Assembly: GCF_011516645.4 (NCBI RefSeq)
Contig: NZ_CP088285.1
Coordinates: 2,064,501 to 2,128,500, forward strand
From: Bradyrhizobium septentrionale
GTDB lineage: Bacteria; Pseudomonadota; Alphaproteobacteria; Rhizobiales; Xanthobacteraceae
Length of the DNA stretch: 64,000 nucleotides
Reading direction: 5' to 3'
A program made the translations under genes and the position numbers. Below are positions 1 to 18,290 of the stretch, piece by piece; position 1 is the first letter of the stretch, and every line of letters starts with the position of its first letter. The notes below the pieces were generated by a model. It was not told the origin of the DNA. It saw nothing but the letters and a program-made list of their open reading frames with translations, and did no database searches.

Positions 1-179
1 ATGATCTCGACCGCGACCTCCCAATAGGGACGGCCGAACAGCGCGGCGATGGTCTCGGGCGAAAGCTGCGGCCAGGTCTCGGGCACGTAGAGCCCGCCGT
101 CGCGGGCAAGCCCGGTCAGCATCACATCGCAGAAGCCAAGCACCGGGGCCTCGCCCCTGGTCGAAATATACCGCGTCAA
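1..179 (-). CDS. thrC: Threonine synthase, N-terminal part (runs off left edge)
   Basis: The reverse strand encodes an N-terminus beginning MTRYISTRGEAPVLGF and continuing through GLARDGGLYVPE, which is the characteristic start of threonine synthase. This PLP enzyme converts O-phosphohomoserine to threonine in the cytoplasm. Only about 59 residues lie in the window; the PLP lysine and the rest are beyond the left edge. The start is a TTG at 177-179, because no ATG precedes the conserved RYIS(T)RG motif. The identification rests on recognition of the conserved N-terminal block. It is the first gene of whatever lies to the left. Confidence 0.85.
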   Translation of the reverse strand, partial: MTRYISTRGEAPVLGFCDVMLTGLARDGGLYVPETWPQLSPETIAALFGRPYWEVAVEI

Positions 180-8116: not shown

Positions 8117-9118
8117 TCACATCGGCCGGTAGGTCCGCACGTCGCCGGGGACGTTGACGCCGATCTTGATCGCGCCGACCGAGCGGATGATGTCGTCGCC
8201 GAGCAGCTGGGCGAAGCAGGCGTAGCCCCAGTCGTTCATATGCAGGCCGTCGGCGGTGACGAAATCGTTGATCGGGATCGCCTGCCGCTCGTGCCAGTCG
8301 CGCATCACCTCGAAGCGCGGGAAGATGCCGACATGGCGCAGCGCGGCGATGCGGCCGAGCAGCTTCACCATGCCGCGCGCACTTTCGGGACGCTCGGTGA
8401 CGCGCGGCGAATATTGCGGATCGACCAGCACGACGTCGGCGCCGGAGGCCTGCAGCCGCGCCACGCCGTCCTCGACCTGCTTGGCGGTCTCGGAAGGATC
8501 GAGGTTGCGCAGCACCGCGTTGGTGCCGACCTGCCAGATCACCATGTCCGGATGCACGTCGATCACTTCGGTCTGCAGCCGCGCCATCATCTCGGGCGCG
8601 TCCTCGCCGCCCTTGCCGCGGTTGAGCACGGTGATGTCGGCGGAGGGATATTGCCGGCGCAGCTGTCCGGCGAGCCGGTTCGGATAGGTGAATTGGGGCG
8701 CCGACGAACCATAACCTTCCGTCGAGGACGAGCCGAATGCGATGATGACGACCGGCTTGCCGGCGGCGAGCTTGGCCGCGACATGCGGCAGCGAGCCGGT
8801 CGAGCTCGGCACGCCCTTGGGCTGCTGGCAGGGCACGCGATGGAAAATGTCGCTGGCGGATTTGGCGACCTGCCTCACCTTGTCGAACGCCTTCGCGGCG
8901 ACGCCGGGCTGCTGATTGGCCGCATCGGCTTCGATCGCGGCGGGCTTGTCCGCATCAGGCCGTGCGGCCTCGGACTTCGCGCCGGGCGCGAGTGCCGCAT
9001 GCTGATCGCCCTGGCCGGTCTGCGCGCGCGACGGCGTAACCGCGATCGGCGCAAGCAACGCGAGCGCCGCAACGGCGCACCCTGCGATAGAGCAAAAAGG
9101 GAACGCAAAACGCATCAA
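8117..9118 (-). CDS. Secreted SGNH/GDSL hydrolase (catalytically complete)
   Basis: The 333-residue protein has a signal peptide (1-32). A linker of about 80 residues precedes an SGNH hydrolase domain. All four catalytic blocks are present: Ser131 in AFGSSSTEG, Gly in VLNRGKGGED, Asn200 in WQVGTN, and Asp290/His293 in DGLHMNDWG. Such enzymes are esterases or acyltransferases acting on O-acyl groups. It is the third gene of a tight operon opgC-SGNH2-SGNH1, which suggests a periplasmic role in editing acyl decorations on glucans or another envelope glycan. The function is inferred from context only. Confidence 0.8.
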   Translation of the reverse strand: MMRFAFPFCSIAGCAVAALALLAPIAVTPSRAQTGQGDQHAALAPGAKSEAARPDADKPAAIEADAANQQPGVAAKAFDKVRQVAKSASDIFHRVPCQQPKGVPSSTGSLPHVAAKLAAGKPVVIIAFGSSSTEGYGSSAPQFTYPNRLAGQLRRQYPSADITVLNRGKGGEDAPEMMARLQTEVIDVHPDMVIWQVGTNAVLRNLDPSETAKQVEDGVARLQASGADVVLVDPQYSPRVTERPESARGMVKLLGRIAALRHVGIFPRFEVMRDWHERQAIPINDFVTADGLHMNDWGYACFAQLLGDDIIRSVGAIKIGVNVPGDVRTYRPM

Positions 9119-9129
9119 CTCTGCTTCCT

Positions 9130-9897
9130 CTAATTCTGCTGCACCGGGCCCAGATGGGCCGCATCGATCACGAATTTCGCAAGGGCCCGGCCGAGACAGG
9201 CATGAACCTTCTTGGCCAGGTCGACACCATGCGAGGTGCTGAACAGGTCAAAGTATCCGGCGTCGCTCCATTGCTTCATGATCGCGAACCGGTCGAACAG
9301 CGGAACGTCATGCTGCTGCGCCACCACTTTCATATTGTCGAGATATGGCGGTGCAGAGATCATCGTCTCCGTACGCGGGCTGTATTGGAGATTGACCAGC
9401 ACCACGTCAGTCCCGGCGCCCCGCAACGCAACAACGCCGTCGTTGATGGCGGTACGGAAATCATCGGGATCGACTGCTCGCATAGCATCGACCGTGCCGG
9501 TCTGCCAGATAACCAAAGTAGGCTTTTTTGCTTCAACAAGCTTAACAAGGGTTCCCGCGGTCTCCTCGGCGGTGCTCTTTCCCTGTAATTCTACGGATAG
9601 ATCGATCACAGACGACGGCAACGCCTCCTTCAGCGCCGCCTGCAGCGTGGCCGGGTAGGCGCTCGCCTCGTTGCCGGGGATGGTCGAGGAGCGGCTGCCG
9701 ACTACCAGCACGTTGAGCGGCTGGTTGGCCTTCACGGCATCCATGACCTTCGGCAGCGAGCTTTCGGTTGTGAGGAGATAGGCGGGCACGTCGCAGGGCG
9801 GCGCCGGCGGCTCGGCGGCGTCGCCGGCGCGTGCGGGCGCCGCCGCCAAACAGGCGGCCAATAGCGTCAGGCCCAGCAGCGTCCGCGCGGACATCAT
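9130..9897 (-). CDS. Secreted SGNH-like paralogue with degenerate active site
   Basis: The 255-residue protein with a signal peptide (1-24) is clearly paralogous to the product of the next gene: LVIWQTGTVDAMRAVDP aligns with MVIWQVGTNAVLRNLDP, and DVVLVNLQYSPR with DVVLVDPQYSPR. However, the catalytic Asn is Val136, and the Asp of the D-x-x-H pair is missing (STSHGVD instead of TADGLHM). The Ser block is altered to VGSRSST. It may be a non-catalytic partner. The ATG at 9897 overlaps the opgC stop by ATGA, indicating translational coupling; the next gene starts 11 bases downstream. Confidence 0.75.
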   Translation of the reverse strand: MMSARTLLGLTLLAACLAAAPARAGDAAEPPAPPCDVPAYLLTTESSLPKVMDAVKANQPLNVLVVGSRSSTIPGNEASAYPATLQAALKEALPSSVIDLSVELQGKSTAEETAGTLVKLVEAKKPTLVIWQTGTVDAMRAVDPDDFRTAINDGVVALRGAGTDVVLVNLQYSPRTETMISAPPYLDNMKVVAQQHDVPLFDRFAIMKQWSDAGYFDLFSTSHGVDLAKKVHACLGRALAKFVIDAAHLGPVQQN

Positions 9898-11156
9898 GCT
9901 CCCCCTCCCGCCATATCGGCGTTGCCGCCGGCGCCTTTTTTCGAGGCGCCTTTGTCGGCGGAGTGCTTGTACCACGAAATAATCCACGCCATGCCGCACA
10001 TGATGAGGATGCCGCTGACGCTGATCAAGGCGTGCAGTGCGGCACCGCCAGATACTTCGGCAAGCACGAAGTGACCGGCAAAGGCGAGGAAGACCCCGAG
10101 ACAGAATATCTCAAGAGAATGCTGGCCACACAGGATCAAAGGTCGCAGCCAGGGCGATTTCAACCCCGGCCAATCCCGGGGCAGGAAGCGCACGGTGAGG
10201 GCTGCGAGCGCCAGGAAATGCGCGAACCGCAACACGTCCAGGTCGGTCTTGTTGATCGGATACATCCATTGCTCGATCACCTTGGGCATGATGTGGCCGA
10301 GCTGCGGCACGTACCAGGTCAGCGTCACGAAGAACGCGGCGACCAGATAGACGATGCAGATCCACATCGTGATGTTCGACGACAGGATCCGCGACATCCG
10401 CCGCGCGCCGCCCAGCGCACACCAGGCGCCGAACACGAACAGCAATTGCCAGGCGAACGGATTGAACGCCCAGAAGCCGTTCGGATAGGCCGACAAATAG
10501 AGGTCGAACTGCCAGGTCACCGCGTAGAGCACGACCGACAGGCCGAGCGTGACATCGGGCTTCCACTTCATCAGCCACAGGATCAGCGGCAGGAACAGCA
10601 TCAGGACGATATAGAGCGGCAGCACGTCCATGTTGACCGGACGGAAGCGCAGCAGCAGCGCCTGGACGATGGTGACGTCGGGCTGCTTGAGGAAGTCCAT
10701 GATCCCCATCTCTTCGGTGTAGAGCGGGTTCTCGAACGAGGTCGCCACATAGGAGATCTCGGCGAGGAAGATCGTGAACAGGAAGACATGCGCGACATAG
10801 ATCTGCCAGACCCGGCGCAGGATGCGCGCGGTCGCGATCACGAAGCCGCCCTCCAGCATGGCGCGGCCATAGACGAAGGCCGCGGTATAGCCGGAGATGA
10901 AGATGAAGATCTCGGTGGCGTCGGAGAAGCCGTAATTGCGGATGGTTAGCCAGGTCAGGAGATTGGTCGGCAGATGATCGATGAAGATCAGCCACAGCGC
11001 GAGCCCGCGGAACAGGTCGAGCCTGAGCTCGCGCTCGCCGGTCACCGGCAGCGTGATCGCAGGCGCCGCGGCCTTCACCTCGGCATCGGCTTTTGCCTCG
11101 GCCTTGGTCTCAGCCACCGGCGAACCGGCTATGGGATCGGCAATCGAGCTCATCAA
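9894..11156 (-). CDS. opgC: OpgC family membrane acyltransferase
   Basis: The 420-residue polytopic membrane protein begins with an acidic-alanine tail followed by ERELRLDLFRGLALWLIFIDH, the OpgC signature with its conserved Arg/Asp and His before the first helix. About ten hydrophobic helices follow. OpgC-type proteins are inner-membrane acyltransferases that add succinyl groups to osmoregulated periplasmic glucans. It heads a three-gene operon with two secreted SGNH-like proteins, which fits synthesis and trimming of O-acyl decorations. The start is the first of two adjacent ATG codons. Confidence 0.85.
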   Translation of the reverse strand: MMSSIADPIAGSPVAETKAEAKADAEVKAAAPAITLPVTGERELRLDLFRGLALWLIFIDHLPTNLLTWLTIRNYGFSDATEIFIFISGYTAAFVYGRAMLEGGFVIATARILRRVWQIYVAHVFLFTIFLAEISYVATSFENPLYTEEMGIMDFLKQPDVTIVQALLLRFRPVNMDVLPLYIVLMLFLPLILWLMKWKPDVTLGLSVVLYAVTWQFDLYLSAYPNGFWAFNPFAWQLLFVFGAWCALGGARRMSRILSSNITMWICIVYLVAAFFVTLTWYVPQLGHIMPKVIEQWMYPINKTDLDVLRFAHFLALAALTVRFLPRDWPGLKSPWLRPLILCGQHSLEIFCLGVFLAFAGHFVLAEVSGGAALHALISVSGILIMCGMAWIISWYKHSADKGASKKGAGGNADMAGGGA

Positions 11157-11429
11157 ACACCGTATCGGCTGCGGACGCCCCGCAGGCCGTGCTGAAAAGA
11201 TAATATCGGTCCACGACTTGCTGACAAAGCGGAGAGTGCGGCGGCATGCGGCCGCGCTTTAGAGCGGAACTATGTTGAAACCACGATGAACGGACGGCTC
11301 CCGGGGGACCGACTTTTTACGGCCCGCCCGGCGATTGGTTCCGGCGGATCAATTGGCTATGATAGGCGCCTGTTTGCGCACGATCCGGTCGAAAGCGGAT
11401 TGTGCGCCGAGATCATCGGATTGAGCCGT

Positions 11430-11828
11430 ATGTACCGCGCCGTTACCCGCCAGATCGAAGTCACCGTCGAGCCGAACTTCATGCCGGAGCGCTCATCGGT
11501 CGACCGGCGCGAGTATTTCTGGTCGTACAAGATCGTGATCGTCAATGCGGGCCCGGAAACGGTGCAACTGCGCACCCGGCACTGGATCATCACCGACGCC
11601 ACCGGCCGCCGCCAGGAGGTCCGCGGCGAGGGTGTGGTCGGCGAGCAGCCGGTGCTCGCGCCCGGCGAGCGCTTCGAATATACCTCAGGCGTGCCGCTGC
11701 CGACCGCCTCCGGCTTCATGACCGGCAGTTACCAGATGGTCACCGAAGCCGGCGAGCGCTTCGACATCGACGTGCCGACGTTCTCGCTGGACAGCCCGAG
11801 CCCGGACGGGAAAAGGGTGTTGAACTGA
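11430..11828 (+). CDS. apaG: ApaG protein
   Basis: The 132-residue protein starts MYRAVTRQIEVTVEPNFMPE and contains the ApaG fold elements FWSYKIVIVNAGPETVQLRTRHW and LPTASGFMTGSY. ApaG is a small fibronectin-III-like domain linked in enterobacteria to Co2+/Mg2+ phenotypes and diadenosine tetraphosphate metabolism; its biochemical role is unsettled. The ATG at 11430 is chosen because the conserved N-terminus begins there and upstream codons lack conservation. The gene stands alone. Confidence 0.9.
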   Translation: MYRAVTRQIEVTVEPNFMPERSSVDRREYFWSYKIVIVNAGPETVQLRTRHWIITDATGRRQEVRGEGVVGEQPVLAPGERFEYTSGVPLPTASGFMTGSYQMVTEAGERFDIDVPTFSLDSPSPDGKRVLN

Positions 11829-12169
11829 GACACTTCTTCCGGGCGACAATGTCGCGGCAAGGGTGCGCGTCCACGAGACTTCAGGGAGCCAGTCCGCACG
11901 CTCTCCGTCACCGTGGAGAGCGATCGCGACGAAGTAGTGACGGTCAAGCATGGGTTCGCACTCTCGCGGCGCAATCCAACACGTTGGTTTGCTTGCATCA
12001 ACGTGCGCGTGGGATAGTGCGTATCCGGACATTGCGCCCGGGGGATTGGCCCGGGCCGACCACGTTGCCCCTCCGGCAAAAATAGTATATTTTGTTGTTG
12101 CTCGGGCGGTTCAACGCGCCGGGCTTTCGGTCGATCCCTGCACCGCGCTGCGAATACAGGAGCGTGACC
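11829..12169. other. Gene-free interval before the RiPP precursor; hairpin and possible promoter
   Basis: About 340 bases carry no credible gene. An 8-bp perfect hairpin, CGCTCTCC with GGAGAGCG, spans 11899-11922 but lacks a T-tract. A possible sigma-70-like promoter is TTGCCC at 12065-12070 and TATTTT at 12088-12093, 17 bases apart, in an unusually AT-rich stretch just before the precursor gene. Confidence 0.4.
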
Positions 12170-12448
12170 ATGCCGATTACGACGCTGAAGGTTTTGGCGA
12201 GCCTCATCCAGCTCCATGGGCCCGACGCAACCATTCAAAGCGACCATCAGGGTATCGACGCATTGCTGAGCGATCTGCGCGGACAGGGTGTGCAGCAAGG
12301 GGTCGTCGCCGACGAAGCCGTGGTGACCCAAGCCGCTTTCAGACGTGGGGGTTTTGCCAAGGGGCCTAACGCAGGCGCGTTTCGCAGAGCGGGGTACGCT
12401 CCGGGCGTGGGCGCGTTTCGCCGAGGCGGATTTGTTCGAGGGTACTAG
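12170..12448 (+). CDS. Putative RiPP precursor peptide with three FRR repeats (AmcA-like)
   Basis: A 92-residue peptide starts at ATG 12170 behind AGGAG (12158-12162). Residues 1-55 look like a leader (MPITTLKVLASLIQLHG, then a polar stretch with DALLSDLRGQG). The C-terminal 37 residues are a core of three imperfect repeats, AFRRGGFAKG, AFRRAGYAPG and AFRRGGFVRG, ending in Tyr92. Phe57, Phe71 and Phe83 each start an FRR triad, and Phe62 and Phe88 start FAK and FVR. Aromatic-x-basic triads are the crosslink motif of three-residue cyclophane RiPPs. The radical SAM maturase follows at once, separated by a family E element whose first bases supply the TAG stop. I recall the AmcA family as the closest match but cannot verify it. 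Confidence 0.75.
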   Translation: MPITTLKVLASLIQLHGPDATIQSDHQGIDALLSDLRGQGVQQGVVADEAVVTQAAFRRGGFAKGPNAGAFRRAGYAPGVGAFRRGGFVRGY

Positions 12449-12551
12449 AGCATTTTCGGTTCTGATTGAATCAGAACCGAAGCTCCAGCTCTTTGTTTTG
12501 ACGCGTTTTCTTCACGCGAACCGGTATCCACTTCGCTCGAAAACGCTCTAG
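12444..12551. repeat. Family E palindromic element, copy 1
   Basis: The element begins CTAGAGC and ends GCTCTAG. Inside, GATTGAATC is flanked by GGTTCT and AGAACC, forming a central hairpin. It fills most of the gap between the precursor and its maturase and contains the precursor stop codon (12446-12448). A second copy starts at 17375. Confidence 0.8.
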
Positions 12552-12581
12552 CTAGCTCCTTCAACCAGTCTCGGTATCGGC

Positions 12582-13796
12582 ATGTCAGCGGACGGTGCAG
12601 ATTTTGCCGCTTTCCAGGATCAGCCGATCACGCAATTGCTGGTCAAGGTTGCAACGAGATGTAACATCGATTGCTCCTATTGTTACTGGTTCCGCGACGC
12701 GTCCGTTTACAGCAAGCCCAAGCTCATGAGCCCGGACGTGCAGCAGCAATTGCTGCAGCGCATAGAACAGCATGTTCTCAGATACGCCCTCGTCGATTTT
12801 CCCATCATTCTGCACGGGGGTGAGCCGCTGCTGTGGGGCGTGGAGAACTTCCACCGCTTTGCCGAGGCCTGCGAGGATATTTCATCACGGACCGGCTGCG
12901 AGATACCCATCGCGGTCACGACCAACGGCGTGTTGATCGATGACGATTGGCTGGCCTGCTTCGAGGCCCACAACATTTCGGTCGCGATTAGTCTGGATGG
13001 GCCGGCGCACATTCACGACACGCACCGCAAGACGTTCCAGGGTACGGGCACCCACGCCGCTGTCGAACGAGCCGCTCGCATGCTGGTGTCGCGCGAGATT
13101 GGCGTGATTGCCCTGGCAGTCTGCAATCCCGCCTATGCGCCGCAGCAATATGCCGATTTTTTCGCTGCGTGCGGGATCTCCAACTACGACATCATGATCC
13201 CCGACGCGACGGTGGACGAGCAGCCGCCATCCATTGCCGCGTTCTACAAGGGCTTGTTCGACGTGTGGCTGGATGCGAATCGCGCCGCACCGACGATCAA
13301 TATCCGCATCATTTCCGACATGATCACCGCCCTGCTCGACAACAATTCACCGACCGAGGGCGTCGGCCACAAACCCGTCGAGCTTTGCACCATCATGACC
13401 GATGGCACCGTGGAGGCGCACGATGTGCTGCGGATTGCGGGCGACGGCTTCACGAACACCAGCTTCAACATCTTCGATCATGCGATCGACGCGGTCAGGA
13501 ACGAGCCTCGCTGGAAAGCCGCGCGCGATGCTTCAATCAATCTTTGCGCGAAGTGTCGGCAATGCAAGTTCATGAACGCCTGCGGGGGCGGCTATCTACC
13601 GCACCGTTTCTCCAAGGCGAACGGCTACGATAATCCTTCGGTCTATTGCGACGATCTCTATGCGATGTTTGAGAACATGCAGTTCGTGCTGGAAAACCAT
13701 CTTTACGTCAGCAAGCCAGACGGCAGTCGCGTCAATGTGCGCGACACTTTGGCAGGCGCCATGCCCGTGAATGCGAGGCACTCTATTTCAGAATAA
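12582..13796 (+). CDS. Radical SAM/SPASM peptide maturase (cyclophane-type)
   Basis: The 404-residue protein has the radical SAM Cys27-x3-Cys31-x2-Cys34 motif (CNIDCSYCYWF) that holds the [4Fe-4S] cluster splitting S-adenosylmethionine, then HGGEPLLWG and TTNGVLI typical of SAM binding. Its SPASM region has Cys269, Cys322, Cys325, Cys328, Cys334 and Cys356 in the pattern LCAKCRQCKFMNACGGGYLP, seen in peptide maturases of the FxsB/GrrM/AmcB type. It should modify the upstream precursor, probably by crosslinking Phe/Tyr side chains to nearby residues. The ATG at 12582 has a poor ribosome-binding site. No exporter or protease lies beside it. Confidence 0.85.
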   Translation: MSADGADFAAFQDQPITQLLVKVATRCNIDCSYCYWFRDASVYSKPKLMSPDVQQQLLQRIEQHVLRYALVDFPIILHGGEPLLWGVENFHRFAEACEDISSRTGCEIPIAVTTNGVLIDDDWLACFEAHNISVAISLDGPAHIHDTHRKTFQGTGTHAAVERAARMLVSREIGVIALAVCNPAYAPQQYADFFAACGISNYDIMIPDATVDEQPPSIAAFYKGLFDVWLDANRAAPTINIRIISDMITALLDNNSPTEGVGHKPVELCTIMTDGTVEAHDVLRIAGDGFTNTSFNIFDHAIDAVRNEPRWKAARDASINLCAKCRQCKFMNACGGGYLPHRFSKANGYDNPSVYCDDLYAMFENMQFVLENHLYVSKPDGSRVNVRDTLAGAMPVNARHSISE

Positions 13797-13981
13797 TAGA
13801 AATAGGTCCCGAATTTTTCTGATTTGCTCGACGGCCAGTCAACTCGCCATCATTCAATATGAAATTGCGCGTTGGGGCGGCGCGGCCGCCACGCGATCAA
13901 TGGAATCGACCGGTCGGCACCCGGAACCAATGCCTCGCGAGACCATTGGCTTCCTGACACAAGCACTTTTGGAGGATTAGT

Positions 13982-14305
13982 ATGAAGAATCTCGCGATCT
14001 ATTTGACGGCCGGCGCAAGTGCCCTTGTCATGACTGCCACAACCACGGCTTACGCCGGACCGCTTTCGCTCGGCGCGTCCGTTACGCCGGCGAGCAACAT
14101 CCACAACGTTCGCATGGTTTGCCGCGAAGACGGCCGTTGCTGGCGTGAACGTGGCGAACGACGCGTCATCATCCGCGAGCGCGGTGATTCATACGGATAT
14201 GCGCCTCGCGAGCGCTACATCGAGCGCCATGACTATGAAGAGCGTGGTGGCATCGGGTTCCGCGCGCCGGGCGTGAGCGTCGGAATCGGGACCGACCGCT
14301 ACTGA
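13982..14305 (+). CDS. Small secreted protein, genus-type
   Basis: The 107-residue protein starts behind TGGAGGA and has a signal peptide (1-25, cleaved near TAYAG). The mature part has a short Cys pair (VCREDGRCW, a possible disulfide) and a repetitive basic/aromatic segment (RERGDSYGYAPRERYIERHDYEERGG). It ends with a Gly-rich tail. It is probably exported to the periplasm; function unknown. A clear terminator follows. It lies 185 bases after the RiPP maturase and its own terminator and ribosome-binding site suggest separate expression. Confidence 0.75.
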   Translation: MKNLAIYLTAGASALVMTATTTAYAGPLSLGASVTPASNIHNVRMVCREDGRCWRERGERRVIIRERGDSYGYAPRERYIERHDYEERGGIGFRAPGVSVGIGTDRY

Positions 14306-14325
14306 GGAAACGGAAAGCGCCAAAA

Positions 14326-14358
14326 AGGGCCGCGGAGAAATCCGCGGCTTTTCTTTTT
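14326..14358 (+). terminator. Rho-independent terminator
   Basis: Stem GCCGCGGA / TCCGCGGC (14329-14336 with 14341-14348), loop GAAA, followed by TTTTCTTTTT. It ends transcription of the secreted-protein gene at 13982. Confidence 0.9.
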
Positions 14359-14408
14359 GGCGGCCCTGCAAACGGCGTGGACATGGTCCGCCGGCCAACT
14401 GCCCGCCT

Positions 14409-14531
14409 TCACATGTGAGGGGCACTGGCGCCCCGCATGCGCTCCAGGAACCAGAAAGCCCCGATCGCAACGAACGAGAGAACGAAGATTCCTCCACACG
14501 CCAAGAAAGTCTGTACGAAACTCGTATCCAT
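14409..14531 (-). CDS. 40-residue single-pass membrane miniprotein
   Basis: The reverse strand encodes a 40-residue protein with a strong GGAGG five bases before ATG 14531. The sequence opens MDTSFVQTFLACGG, continues with a hydrophobic helix (IFVLSFVAIGAFWFL, residues 15-29) and ends with a short basic tail (ERMRGASAPHM). The helix and positive C-terminal side predict one membrane span with the tail inside. I know no function. It lies between the convergent secreted-protein gene and the DUF1488 gene, and the same strand downstream runs into the terminator at 14326. Confidence 0.5.
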   Translation of the reverse strand: MDTSFVQTFLACGGIFVLSFVAIGAFWFLERMRGASAPHM

Positions 14532-14618
14532 GACATCCTCCAGTTGATCGCTTGCAAGCTCGACCAACGCGCTCAATCTGCCAGATTGTCTCGCGTGATC
14601 GGATCGACGGCGCCGATT

Positions 14619-14879
14619 TCAGAAATTCGCAGCGACCAGATCGTAAGACCCCCTACTTCCGCGAACATAGACCCTGGCAGCGGCGGCACAGATCAGATCG
14701 CGGTTGGCATCGAACGCGTTCAGAAGGCCCGGCTCGTCGAGGTAGGCATCCGATTGAATGCGTTTCAAGGCGCCTTCGGTGACGAAGAATGATGCCTCAA
14801 TAGCACTGTCATATCCCCAAAACCGCACGGCGCGCCGCGTCTGGTCGTATGAACGACTATGATTTGGAAACTCAATCAT
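14619..14879 (-). CDS. DUF1488 family small protein
   Basis: The 86-residue protein begins MIEFPNHSRSYDQTRRAVRFWGYD and has the pattern F-x-V, AL-x-x-I and YDL at the end that I associate with DUF1488, small proteins common in alphaproteobacteria with no known role. It contains no signal peptide or membrane segment. The family assignment is by recognition only. The 40-residue membrane gene lies about 90 bases downstream on the same strand, so they may share a transcript. Confidence 0.65.
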   Translation of the reverse strand: MIEFPNHSRSYDQTRRAVRFWGYDSAIEASFFVTEGALKRIQSDAYLDEPGLLNAFDANRDLICAAAARVYVRGSRGSYDLVAANF

Positions 14880-15216
14880 GGATAAGGCCTATCAGGTTGA
14901 TGCCATGGCGTGCCGTGCCCCGTGACGCGCACATTGAAGCGACGTGACGTCGGTCGATATCGGGGGCAAGATTTGGCGGCTAAGGCTTCGCGCTTCCGCA
15001 AAGGGGATGCTGTAACAATACAGTTGCGCTACCGCTTACGTGGCTACTCCACTAACCAATGACAAGCCCACTCGCACCAGGCCCCCACAAATAGATCGCG
15101 ATTCGCCTTGTTGTCGGGCGGAAGGATCGCTACGTGTTCAGTATCACCGCGCGCCCCGGGCTGTTACCGGTGACTGAGAGTGTTGCGCTCCCGCCTTGAC
15201 CAAAACAGGCGGTTAC
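14880..15216. other. Gene-free interval ending in a leader motif
   Basis: About 340 bases without a credible gene. The last 75 bases carry the inverted repeat TCACCG (15144-15149) / CGGTGA (15168-15173) and the block GGTGACTGAGAGTG, which recur before the small gene at 17178. I see nothing else in it. Confidence 0.5.
15144..15194 (+). promoter_or_regulatory. Duplicated 5' leader motif, copy 1
   Basis: TCACCG-N18-CGGTGA followed by CTGAGAGTG and GCTCCCGCC, with the GAGAGTG block ending 35 bases before ATG 15217. The same arrangement and distance occur before ATG 17178. It could be a promoter or an RNA leader; the sequence does not decide. Confidence 0.45.
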
Positions 15217-15324
15217 ATGTCAGATATCTCCAAATTCGATCTTCGCGGGTTGCTCGTACCACCGGTGCTGCTGCCGATCTTCTTTGTGCTGCTGGTCGCC
15301 GCCGTGGTCGTCATTCAATGGTGA
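15217..15324 (+). CDS. 35-residue single-pass membrane miniprotein
   Basis: ATG 15217, preceded by ACAGGCGG, opens a 35-residue frame. The N-terminus MSDISKFDLRGLLVPP is polar, followed by one hydrophobic helix (VLLPIFFVLLVAAVVVIQW, about residues 17-35) that runs to the C-terminus. It looks like a tail-anchored inner-membrane peptide. I recall near-identical short proteins in Bradyrhizobium but no function. It has the same upstream leader motif as the unrelated small gene at 17178, which argues that it is expressed. Confidence 0.55.
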   Translation: MSDISKFDLRGLLVPPVLLPIFFVLLVAAVVVIQW

Positions 15325-15753
15325 TCCAACGCTGCGCGCTTTCGCCGCAGGCCGGATCGCCTCGGATGAAACAAACCCAATCAACGCTGGCTCACGATCT
15401 CGATGATCCGAGCGGTGGCCGCCGTGGACGAGGCGCGCGAAATGCCGCCGAAATGCAGGAGCTTCTCTGCGGTAAAACGCGGCGGAGCAGCCGATTGAAC
15501 GGCCTAAGAGGGCGGTGCGCTGCTGTGTGCTCGCTCCCGACTGAGAACCAACACGCTAGTGACACGCAGGAGCAAGCGCGCCGTTTGTCGCCGGCGCGAG
15601 ATGGCAACGTGCATTCGCGGCGAGCTTATATCATTTATCAGCTGGCCGGGGATCGAATGGGCACCGAGACGCTTGTCCCAGATCGACTGCCTCGTCCGGT
15701 TCAGGGCAGCTTCGATCTCTCAAATCGCTGCGAGCGGCGTTCCAGGCGTTCTA
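15325..15753. other. Gene-free interval before the response regulator
   Basis: About 430 bases. Open frames cross it in two phases, but their translations are Arg/Ser-rich with no recognisable domain, so I treat them as chance. No clear repeat or terminator was seen. It may contain a decayed gene; I cannot show one. Confidence 0.4.
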
Positions 15754-16137
15754 ATGGTACTCGATCATTCAGGCATTCCAGCTGTTGTGCTCATTGTCGA
15801 GGACGAGATGCTGCTTCGCATGCGCGCGGTAGAAATGGTGGAAGACGCCGGCTATACGCCACTTGAGGCCATGGATGCCGATGAGGCTGTCGCCATCCTG
15901 GAATCCAGGTCCGATATCGCGCTGGTATGCACCGACATCCAGATGCCCGGCAGCATGGACGGCCTTGAACTCGCACATGCCGTGCACGGGCGTTGGCCGT
16001 CGATCAAGATCATCGTGGTATCGGGGCAATCGAACCTGCCGAGCCTTGATATTCCCGCCTGCAGCAGGTCCTTCGCCAAGCCACTCGATGCCGGGGAAGT
16101 GATAGCTGAGATGCATGGCATGATCGGCCGGGCCTGA
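15754..16137 (+). CDS. Single-domain response regulator
   Basis: The 127-residue protein is only a receiver domain. The acidic pair Glu16-Asp17 (LIVEDE), phospho-acceptor Asp61 (CTDIQMPG), switch Ser90 (VVSGQS) and Lys109 (FAKPLD) are all in place. There is no output domain, so it acts by protein contact or as a phosphate relay. The ATG at 15754 places the first beta strand eleven residues in, which is normal. The HWE-type histidine kinase follows about 80 bases downstream in the same direction and is the likely partner. Confidence 0.85.
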   Translation: MVLDHSGIPAVVLIVEDEMLLRMRAVEMVEDAGYTPLEAMDADEAVAILESRSDIALVCTDIQMPGSMDGLELAHAVHGRWPSIKIIVVSGQSNLPSLDIPACSRSFAKPLDAGEVIAEMHGMIGRA

Positions 16138-16216
16138 TGCCCTCGCGTTTTTCGTGCCGGATACGTCCAGATTCGCCTGATTGCGCAGAAAACATTCGCC
16201 GAAGAGCCAGCTTCTA

Positions 16217-17011
16217 ATGATATGGTCGATGATGTCTCCAGCCGACCTCCGCACAGACCCGCGTGCTGCAAGCCGCTTAGCACCGCAGCAAGACGTTCTG
16301 GCGGAAGAGAATGTCAGCCTTCGGCTTCTCCTCGCGCAGGCCGAGATCGATGCGCAGAGTTTGCTGACCGCGGCCGGCATTGACGCCAAGGAGCGCGAAG
16401 CGGCCGACAAGCTGCAGAAGGTGATCCTCGAGGAGCTTCACCACCGCATCAAGAACACGCTCGCAACCGTCGGTGCCATCGTCTCCCAGAGCCTGCGCAA
16501 CCTGGAAGGAGCTGAACACGCGCAGCACGCCATCGCGGGCCGGCTGCTGGCGCTCGGGCGGGCGCACGATCTCCTGCTGCAGGCAAGATGGAGCAGCGCG
16601 GATCTTGGCACGGTCGTCCGCGGCGCCACCGAAGCATTCAACAATCCGGATGAGCCGAAGTTCTCCATTTCAGGACCCGATATTCGCATGACGTCGGGCG
16701 CCGTCATCGCCATCGCAATGACGCTCAACGAGCTCTGCACGAACACCACGAAGTTCGGTGCCCTGTCCGCTCCACAAGGGCGGATCGACATCAGTTGGAC
16801 GCTGGATCAACCAGCACAGCGCTTGCATCTGACATGGATCGAGAAGAACGGTCCGGCAGTCCACCCTCCCGAAAAGCGCGGTTTCGGGACACGGCTGATC
16901 GAGACGCTTGGCAGGCAACTGCGCGGCGACGTGCGGCTAAGCTATGAGCCGACCGGTTTCGTGTACGCATTCAATGCACCATTGGCTTCTCTGACATCGT
17001 CAACCGCATAG
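16217..17011 (+). CDS. HWE-family sensor histidine kinase, soluble
   Basis: The product of about 264 residues has a short N-terminal coiled coil (residues 25-70), then the HWE/HisKA_2 phospho-acceptor box LEELHHRIKNTLA with phospho-His76. An ATPase domain follows, with the N box MTLNELCTNTTKFGALS and the G box KRGFGTRLIE. It has no membrane helix and no clear sensor domain, so it probably takes a signal from a partner protein. In alphaproteobacteria such kinases often feed the general stress response. The start is uncertain: a TTG at 16181 or an ATG at 16232 are alternatives. Confidence 0.8.
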   Translation: MIWSMMSPADLRTDPRAASRLAPQQDVLAEENVSLRLLLAQAEIDAQSLLTAAGIDAKEREAADKLQKVILEELHHRIKNTLATVGAIVSQSLRNLEGAEHAQHAIAGRLLALGRAHDLLLQARWSSADLGTVVRGATEAFNNPDEPKFSISGPDIRMTSGAVIAIAMTLNELCTNTTKFGALSAPQGRIDISWTLDQPAQRLHLTWIEKNGPAVHPPEKRGFGTRLIETLGRQLRGDVRLSYEPTGFVYAFNAPLASLTSSTA

Positions 17012-17104
17012 TGGACGTCCCCAACCCACCCGCCAAAGTTGGGATATGACCCTCGATGACGAATTAAGTCGACTACCGGGCATAAGGGGTATCTACTGCA
17101 GTCA

Positions 17105-17157
17105 TCACCGCTCCGCCTCTGGCCGATATCGGTGACTGAGAGTGCTCCAAGCTCCCG
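17105..17157 (+). promoter_or_regulatory. Duplicated 5' leader motif, copy 2
   Basis: TCACCG (17105-17110), N19, CGGTGA (17130-17135), then CTGAGAGTG and GCTCCCGCC. The GAGAGTG block ends 34 bases before ATG 17178, matching the copy before ATG 15217. The intervening bases differ, which argues for selection on the shared blocks. Confidence 0.45.
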
Positions 17158-17177
17158 CCAGTAATCAGGAGAGCTTT

Positions 17178-17378
17178 ATGCCGATTGCCCAACACAGCCA
17201 GCCTGAACCGCCGCCTCATGATCTGCTGGCGTTAGAGGCGGTGAGGATAAGGGATGCTGCGAAGCCATTGCTGCCCAGCCTTCAGCGCGATGCGATGCTT
17301 CGCAAGGCGCGCCTGATCGAGACCGCCTCGCACATCAATGATTGGCTGACATCTCCCGGCCTGCGAACGCCCTGCTAG
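17178..17378 (+). CDS. Small conserved hypothetical protein
   Basis: The 66-residue protein starts at ATG 17178 behind AGGAGA. It is soluble, with a Pro-rich start (MPIAQHSQPEPPPHDLL) and two predicted amphipathic helices (LEAVRIRDAAKPLLPSL and DAMLRKARLIETASHINDWL). I recall homologues in Bradyrhizobium without function. It carries the duplicated leader motif upstream. Its TAG stop (17376-17378) lies inside the start of a family E palindromic element. Confidence 0.6.
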   Translation: MPIAQHSQPEPPPHDLLALEAVRIRDAAKPLLPSLQRDAMLRKARLIETASHINDWLTSPGLRTPC

Positions 17379-17480
17379 AGCGTCGAGCGAAGGGGACCGG
17401 TTCGCGTGAAGAAAACGTGTCACACTGACAAACTGGAGCTTCGCTTCTGATTCAATCAGAACCGAAGCTCTGGCTGCCGA
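17375..17480. repeat. Family E palindromic element, copy 2
   Basis: The element starts CTAGAGCG and contains GCTTCTGATTCAATCAGAACC, the same central hairpin as the copy at 12444. As in that copy, the stop codon of the gene before it is formed by the first bases of the element. Confidence 0.75.
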
Positions 17481-17526
17481 CCTTGAGGAAAAGCCGCCCC
17501 ATGACGAGGCGGACTGAGGCCGCCAT

Positions 17527-17724
17527 TCATCGGATGCCGAAGGGCATGGCCTCCGGTCGTCTCTCACCAGGCAACGGCGTCGACATCGGCTCTGACCTGT
17601 CCTTCAGGAACAGGCGACCGCGGTGAACGTTGTCGCGGTGCAGATATTCACGCGCGCCATCCGATTTTGTTGTGCTCGGTGATTTGTGGCCTTGGTGCTC
17701 GTTATTCGACCCATTGCTTCCCAT
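17527..17724 (-). CDS. Doubtful small open frame
   Basis: A 65-codon reverse-strand frame starts MGSNGSNNEHQGHKSP. Its composition is polar and not typical of a shadow frame, but no ribosome-binding site fits well and I recognise nothing in it. It overlaps the possible EcfG promoter on the other strand. I list it as a weak possibility only. Confidence 0.2.
   Translation of the reverse strand: MGSNGSNNEHQGHKSPSTTKSDGAREYLHRDNVHRGRLFLKDRSEPMSTPLPGERRPEAMPFGIR
17607..17631 (+). promoter_or_regulatory. Possible EcfG (general stress sigma) promoter
   Basis: GGAAC at 17607-17611 and CGTT at 17628-17631 are separated by exactly 16 bases, the alphaproteobacterial EcfG consensus GGAAC-N16-17-CGTT. 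It points at the genes from 17796 onward, about 160 bases downstream. Confidence 0.5.
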
Positions 17725-17795
17725 ATAAAAGATCATCCTCGTCGGCCATCGAGATTGGCCGGAATGCGCGGAGACCTCCAACGAAAGGGCCCGCC

Positions 17796-18290
17796 ATGTT
17801 CAAATCTCAGCAGTATCGTGCCAAGGCAGCCGCATATGGCGAACTGATCAAGCGTTCGAGCGGTCAGGGCGAAAGCCGCAAGTTTCAGGAGCAGCAAGAC
17901 CGCCTCGCTTCGCTCGCGGACAACGAGCAGCAACTGGCGGACAATTTTGACGACGCAGTGAACGTTGCGGAGCAGGACCGCTCCCGCGGCGCGGCCCTTG
18001 CCGCCGAAGAGGAGTACGTACTGCGGTGTCTCGGCGCGGCCGTCATCATGCAATGGAACGTCCTGCCGAAGACGCTACAGCGGGAAATCTTCGACACCGC
18101 CGGATCGGTCGGAAAGCTGCTGGAGACGGCGGCGCTCCGCGGGCAGATCGCTCGCTTCCTGCACAAGCACAAGGATGATGCCGATCGCAACAAGGTTCTG
18201 GAGGCGCGTCAGGATGCGAGATCGCGCGCTGCGGCTTTGTCGCGATGGGACAATGAAGGAGGCGCAGTCCCCGAGGGACTGCCGATGTAA
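17796..18290 (+). CDS. Conserved hypothetical helical protein
   Basis: The 164-residue protein starts at ATG 17796 with GAAAGGG upstream. It is soluble and almost entirely helical: residues 5-70 (YRAKAAAYGELIKRSSGQ, then REFQEQQDRLASLADNEQQL-like segments) predict a coiled-coil hairpin, and the C-terminal third is rich in Ala/Arg/Lys. No catalytic motif is visible. It is followed within 30 bases by two more small genes with good ribosome-binding sites, suggesting a three-gene operon, possibly under the EcfG-type promoter at 17607. Confidence 0.65.
   Translation: MFKSQQYRAKAAAYGELIKRSSGQGESRKFQEQQDRLASLADNEQQLADNFDDAVNVAEQDRSRGAALAAEEEYVLRCLGAAVIMQWNVLPKTLQREIFDTAGSVGKLLETAALRGQIARFLHKHKDDADRNKVLEARQDARSRAAALSRWDNEGGAVPEGLPM

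Follow-up and report, generated by a model that had tools for sequence, protein, structure and literature searches.

Among the cyclophane-forming radical SAM/SPASM peptide maturases, the accessible part of a review describes YhhB as linking Tyr or His to the C-beta of Arg, MscB as linking Phe to the C-beta of Ser, and XncB as joining Trp to the C-beta of Arg or Asn (PMC11002830). The pairings given in that part for XncB, OscB, MscB, YxdB, HaaB and YhhB include Trp, Tyr and His with Arg, and Phe only with Asn or Ser; rings joining Phe to Arg or Lys are not among them (PMC11002830). In the accessible parts of two further sources, ChlB is described as a multiple cyclophane synthase in which the radical SAM domain is fused to an alpha-KG HExxH hydroxylase (PMC12636437), and xenorceptides as BamA inhibitors (PMC12971899). 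Darobactin, as far as the accessible text on it goes, contains ether and C-C links.

The window analysed here, a stretch of 64,000 nucleotides of Bradyrhizobium septentrionale DNA (contig NZ_CP088285.1; genome of about 10.4 Mb), carries a small peptide gene and a radical SAM maturase gene which, judged from their sequences, most probably form a self-contained two-gene RiPP cassette of the triceptide type, with the maturase making Phe to Arg/Lys cyclophanes. We are less sure of the exact set of five rings than of the reaction itself. A literature search, which left most subscription papers outside its reach, found no published description of such a RiPP/SPASM/triceptide cassette from Bradyrhizobium, and one may be in print.

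Gene organization and upstream region

The elements of the locus and of its upstream region are as follows:

12065..12091, + strand, promoter-like element TTGCCC-N15-TATATT, conserved in position, recognised by visual inspection of the upstream alignment
12170..12448, + strand, precursor peptide gene, 92 aa (ORF; ATG preceded by an AGGAG sequence)
12449..12550, no strand assigned, interspersed palindromic repeat (about 100 bp) in the intergenic region of the two genes
12582..13796, + strand, radical SAM/SPASM maturase gene, 404 aa (ORF; Pfam Radical_SAM, 5e-13)

Both reading frames are intact in the window. The precursor consists of a leader (approximately residues 1-38), a variable linker (39-55) and a core (56-92). 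A 92-residue precursor gene with three copies of AFRR(G/A)G(F/Y) had been proposed in a first-pass annotation, and both points were confirmed, the copies lying at residues 56-62, 70-76 and 82-88. The same annotation had the maturase following directly; the order, shared strand and adjacency stand, but 133 bases lie between the two genes and are mostly occupied by a palindromic repeat found throughout the genome, with at least 40 near-full-length copies, the one in the window included, at 88-100% identity (40 of 217 candidates scored). Intergenic gaps in some relatives also measure 88-154 bp, and one of them (L021) has a different palindrome-like sequence there.

The region upstream of the precursor (12060-12169) is conserved in relatives, with the block CCGGCCTTTCGTTCGAT...GTCGCGAAAAGAGGAGCA directly before the start. 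The promoter-like element is not listed by a consensus promoter scan, which requires a spacing of 16-18 nt. A structured RNA leader was also considered and rejected, as a hairpin is predicted but only 1 of its 14 predicted pairs shows a two-sided change, so that covariation is weak; Rfam gave no match within 9000-18000. Two related strains have a fluoride riboswitch close to the cassette (L001:7792-7868 and L002:10138-10215).

Comparison of the maturase with described families

We take MscB to be a member of the FxsB family and XncB to be of the XyeB type. The best NCBIfam match of the maturase is YhhB (NF041707), yet with 301.7 bits against a cut-off of 445, followed by FxsB (TIGR04269; 273.8, cut-off 370), XyeB/XncB (TIGR04496; 182.1, cut-off 450) and an anaerobic sulfatase-maturase model. 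GrrM/OscB (TIGR04261) and AmcB (NF041718), both cyclophane-forming SPASM maturases, are far off, at 125.7 bits (cut-off 310) and 111.1 bits (cut-off 425), and among the 25 family matches listed the maturase exceeds no curated cut-off. The earlier assignment to an FxsB/GrrM/AmcB type needs correction: YhhB is the nearest family, FxsB the second nearest, and GrrM and AmcB are distant.

The substrates differ as well. YhhB puts Tyr or His at the ring position, whereas the window precursor has Phe, with Arg or Lys as the partner, and matches no NCBIfam family; the third residue is basic, unlike the Ser of MscB, and although XyeB/XncB belongs to the same reaction class, the window carries Phe-x-Arg/Lys repeats. 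The name of the GrrM model refers to a precursor with glycine-rich repeats. The window precursor has no match to GrrA (TIGR04260), and for one of its homologues the GrrA/OscA1 model gives just 10.9 bits against a cut-off of 31. In Pfam only one sub-threshold match of the window precursor, to a plant domain, was found.

The maturase has the expected make-up of a radical SAM/SPASM peptide maturase, namely a CX3CX2C motif, auxiliary cysteines and a Pfam Radical_SAM domain:

12660..12683, + strand, radical SAM motif Cys27-x3-Cys31-x2-Cys34, invariant in 23/23 aligned maturases
13554..13649, + strand, SPASM-like auxiliary-cluster region with Cys325, Cys328, Cys334 and Cys356, the only Cys of the region invariant in 23/23
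13761..13796, + strand, 11-residue C-terminal tail and stop of the maturase, extending past the end of most relatives

Cys27, Cys31 and Cys34 had been pointed out before and are borne out by the alignment. The SPASM region had been described as having six Cys; six are present at 269-356, but beyond the four invariant ones Cys269 is confined to the 16 rows of the Bradyrhizobium clade and Cys322 to 13 of those 16. The seven invariant Cys would fit one radical SAM cluster plus a single auxiliary cluster coordinated by four Cys.

ChlB (PDB 9gm3, 9gmc) is the closest solved structure both by sequence (191 bits, 32-33% identity) and by fold. A model of the maturase predicted with AlphaFold2 from the 23-row alignment (pLDDT 87.3) gave 9gmc/9gm3 as its top Foldseek matches (E 3.9e-35 to 2.6e-34, TM 0.82-0.90), and against 9gmc_A (E 3.9e-35, TM 0.82/0.89, 33% identity) the predicted fold is of the ChlB type; the next matches were anaerobic sulfatase maturases. 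The same four auxiliary Cys are shared in the ChlB alignment, and 9gm3/9gmc were solved with leader or precursor. The alpha-KG HExxH hydroxylase fusion of ChlB is absent from the window maturase, in which Radical_SAM is the sole Pfam domain over the cut-off along its 404 residues.

The Phe-x-Arg/Lys code of the precursor core

The triads at Phe57, Phe62, Phe71, Phe83 and Phe88 of the window precursor read FRR, FAK, FRR, FRR and FVR, and that at Tyr76 reads YAP. We compared the five Phe triads over 35 distinct precursor genes:

12338..12346, + strand, predicted ring 1, Phe57-Arg58-Arg59: F, R and R in 35/35, with 1, 3 and 4 different codons
12353..12361, + strand, predicted ring 2, Phe62-Ala63-Lys64: Phe 35/35; middle A/V/G/I; third K 19, R 16 of 35
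12380..12388, + strand, predicted ring 3, Phe71-Arg72-Arg73: Phe and middle Arg 35/35; third R 33, K 2
12416..12424, + strand, predicted ring 4, Phe83-Arg84-Arg85: Phe and middle Arg 35/35; third R 34, K 1
12431..12439, + strand, predicted ring 5, Phe88-Val89-Arg90: Phe 35/35; middle V/I/A/G; third Arg 35/35

When the 37 residues of the core in the window (56-92, bounds which we chose) were shuffled, at least five Phe-x-(R/K) arose in 5 of 100,000 trials and at least three FRR in 2 of 100,000. One search returned 741 precursor homologues at E<=1e-3, and those named by their source among the best 120 of the 741 are called hypothetical or uncharacterised proteins. In a 27-member alignment the leader is conserved, the linker is variable, and the core keeps Phe57, 62, 71, 83 and 88 invariant.

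The best 120 of the 741 homologues were pooled with the precursors of 41 loci into 129 distinct cores, many of them from close relatives, and in these a basic residue, Arg or Lys, stands at i+2 for 649 of the 651 Phe (R 590, K 59, G 1, A 1). Both exceptions sit in homologues with frameshifted-looking tails (P0029 and P0054). Five Phe motifs are found in 113 of the cores, six in 11 and four in 5. In the cores of the best 120 homologues, Arg and Lys together make up 99.6% of the residues at i+2 after Phe, against 61% at i+1 and 0.4% at i+3. An aromatic-x-X core motif with a constrained third residue, as in a triceptide precursor, is therefore present, the middle position being free outside FRR. 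The first-pass annotation's proposal of five Phe sites, all with a basic residue in third place, is well supported by this comparison, the rings themselves being predicted. A possible sixth ring at Tyr76 was rejected as unlikely, since the residue at i+2 after Tyr is Gly (106), Pro (89) or Ala (13) in all 208 cases over the 129 cores.

The pN/pS ratio over the 35 distinct genes is 0.18 for the leader (2-38), 0.51 for the linker (39-55) and 0.26 for the core (56-92). The five ring Phe codons show silent changes only (pN 0.000, pS 0.63), the exchange of R and K is the sole change at the i+2 positions, and the middle position of the two non-FRR Phe motifs has a pN/pS of 0.49. The middle Arg of all three FRR motifs is invariant in 35/35, beyond what a simple i to i+2 ring explains, and may reflect charge.

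Co-occurrence of the two genes and borders of the cassette

The precursor was found in 33 of 195 genomes of the genus, and a close maturase (at least 77% identity) in the same 33, where the two are adjacent in each, within about 210 bases by coordinates; in one carrier (G790) the maturase is split over two contigs. A SPASM maturase thus has a precursor gene beside it in 33/33 carriers, and neither a precursor without maturase nor a close maturase without precursor was found in the 195 genomes, a search in which up to 25 precursor candidates were scored per genome, so that a weakly scoring additional copy may have escaped detection. The maturase relatives accordingly do have precursor homologues beside them, the lack of which the first-pass annotation had held would speak against its reading. 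In five further genomes (G681, G711, G639, G780 and G783) the only maturases are distant ones (30-43% identity), and the window-type precursor is absent. Among 391 genomes of the family, with up to 12 candidates scored per genome and the same limit for weak copies, the same 18 have both precursor and maturase, and all 18 are Bradyrhizobium, as are 25 of 25 named loci with close maturases. A link to nodulation was rejected (nodC over cut-off in 20/33 carriers vs 85/162 non-carriers, Fisher p 0.45).

Three relatives with the same flanks lack the following segment:

11825..13784, no strand assigned, about 1960 bp, absent from L106, L107 and L108, which align up to 11824 and again from 13785

In these relatives 59 bp stand in place of the missing sequence, which contains the upstream region, the precursor, nearly all of the maturase and nothing else. 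The simplest reading of this comparison would be an insertion of the cassette; alternatively, the three relatives may have lost the segment by deletion. Six other genomes keep the left flank, with the right flank reduced or absent in the stretch examined. At least one other carrier has the cassette at a different place: in G686 the left flank of the window lies at 8.28 Mb but the cassette at 2.35 Mb. The gene pair seems to travel between genomes as an independent unit.

The final 12 bases of the maturase gene align with the flank of the cassette-free genomes. Among 40 relatives, the maturase has 393 residues in 25, with a range of 384-408 and four reaching 407-408; the window maturase is 11 residues longer than the 393-residue relatives, which may be because the gene end runs into flank sequence.

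Apart from the precursor (with its antisense frame) and the maturase, every neighbour cluster is limited to at most 10 of the 44 loci compared, a set which includes the same strains from two collections and three loci with distant maturases only. No exporter or protease had been seen nearby in the first reading of the window; this was upheld, none being common to the neighbourhoods of the 44 loci. OpgC-type and ApaG-domain genes were considered as partners and rejected, as they extend into the left flank (10900-11824), which is also present in cassette-free genomes.

Several other features surround the cassette. At 9897-11156 and 8117-9999, both on the - strand, an OpgC-type protein adjoins two GDSL-like lipase family proteins. 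Downstream, 13982-14305 encodes a small Arg-rich protein with a signal-peptide-like start and no Pfam match; this gene is aligned in the cassette-free L106-L108 and missing in L109, L110 and L114, where the right flank resumes at about 14570-14600. At 15559-17011 lie a response regulator and, after it, an HWE histidine kinase.

A sister clade with Tyr-x-Arg repeats

The nearest enzyme relatives found outside the close maturases form a sister group of five (L074-L077 and L103) with 38-44% identity to the window maturase. The joint branch is supported at 100/96 and the sister group at 100/99; seven outgroup rows on long branches make the deeper order of the tree unsure. A nearby precursor that combines a different leader with aromatic-x-Arg repeats accompanies four of the five enzymes, and in the short stretch examined for the fifth (L074) no precursor was seen.

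L103:6642-7205, L075:2631-3080, L076:2422-2736 and L077:105-530, sister precursors with dense Tyr/Phe-x-Arg repeats and a Tat-like leader

BLASTP of the window precursor against the L077 and L103 precursors gave no alignment. The L077 precursor has 141 homologues at E<=1e-3, and 90 of the best 120 carry the leader pattern [ST]RRx[FL], which we take to be of the Tat type. The NCBIfam TAT model falls narrowly under its cut-off on two of the four sister precursors (16.1 and 14.6 vs 16.7), and none of the four reaches any NCBIfam cut-off. Over 112 distinct tails from the best 120 of the 141 homologues, the residue at i+2 is Arg after Tyr in 862 of 900 cases and after Phe in 307 of 463 (66%), compared with an Arg content of 31%. 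The sister clade and the window thus share Omega-x-Arg repeats but differ in the leader and in the aromatic residue, which is mainly Tyr instead of Phe in the former. That two dissimilar leaders converge on aromatic-x-Arg is the strongest indirect sign that this group of enzymes would act on the triad.

Proposed mechanism and alternative explanations

Radical SAM superfamily enzymes form a 5'-deoxyadenosyl radical at a Cys cluster. In the scheme that we propose, the conserved leader (TLKVLASLLQLHGPGATIQSDHQGIDALL type) would recruit the maturase, which would form this radical at the Cys27/31/34 cluster. In each Phe-x-(Arg/Lys) triad the third residue would lose a hydrogen at its beta carbon, which would then be bonded to the Phe ring; by analogy with characterised relatives, the Cys325/328/334/356 cluster would probably serve as electron acceptor. 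Up to five three-residue cyclophanes would result (Phe57-Arg59, Phe62-Lys64, Phe71-Arg73, Phe83-Arg85 and Phe88-Arg90), and the product would be a rigid Gly-rich peptide with a charge of about +8. As no protease or exporter travels with the cassette, a general host protease may remove the leader, or the modified peptide may stay whole in the cell.

We favour Phe to Arg/Lys cyclophanes because of the pairing of the two genes, the i+2 code, the silent changes at the Phe codons, the Tyr-x-Arg repeats of the sister clade and the ChlB fold. On the other hand, the maturase lies below the family cut-offs, only 66% of the Phe in the sister clade have Arg at i+2, and the middle Arg of FRR is invariant. 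Some of these points would also suit a maturase that modifies the precursor otherwise, through a C-N or ether link, an i+1 link (Phe-Arg in FRR), hydroxylation or epimerisation, or one that acts on some of the five sites only. The invariance of that middle Arg in 35/35, set against a variable middle residue in the two remaining Phe motifs, is what such an i+1 link could leave, and the related SPASM enzymes DarE, DynA and PapB, which make other bonds, are among the NCBIfam matches of a maturase under every cut-off among the families listed. We nevertheless regard this as improbable, given that the two Phe motifs with a free middle keep positions i and i+2 only, that the sister clade retains Tyr-x-Arg, and that the nearest characterised relatives, YhhB and ChlB, form three-residue or multiple cyclophanes in the accessible accounts of them.

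FRRGGF resembles RGG boxes, and Gly and Arg account for 30% and 21% of the residues in the 129 cores, so the peptide might be imagined as an RGG/FG-like nucleic-acid-binding or structural peptide in which Phe and Arg serve binding, the neighbouring enzyme acting elsewhere. This seems very unlikely in view of the strict pairing with the maturase in 33/33 carriers, neither gene occurring alone in 195 genomes, the segment made of these two genes only, the strict i+2 spacing, and the second, dissimilar precursor type beside the sister enzymes. Least credible of all is that the pair is a decaying relic or an annotation artefact. Its patchy presence (33/195 genomes of the genus), the repeat between the genes, the unusual tail on the window maturase and the altered C-terminal ends in 4 of the best 120 homologues (P0024, P0029, P0054 and P0073) would agree with decay, but a pN/pS of 0.18 in the leader and 0.26 in the core, zero nonsynonymous change at the ring Phe, two intact frames in the window and the presence of all seven invariant Cys speak against it.

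For the cyclophane product, our best guess, and a tentative one, is a role in multivalent binding of an anionic partner. A wider conjecture, which we consider rather doubtful when taken as a whole, is that the cassette is a mobile minimal RiPP with five or six Phe-C-beta(Arg/Lys) rings, whose highly cationic product would not be an exported antibiotic but would act whole, within the producing cell or on its surface, where it would bind an anionic polymer as a rigid multivalent ligand, while the sister clade would export its Tyr-x-Arg versions via Tat already crosslinked.

Implications

The locus defines a precursor family without an NCBIfam name (741 homologues) and with a simple Phe-x-Arg/Lys code. 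Together with the sister clade, in which the aromatic residue is mostly swapped and Arg is kept, the window offers a natural experiment on how cyclophane synthases choose their partner residues. A cassette that lacks a neighbouring exporter, protease or immunity gene also raises the question of how the cell uses a RiPP of this kind.
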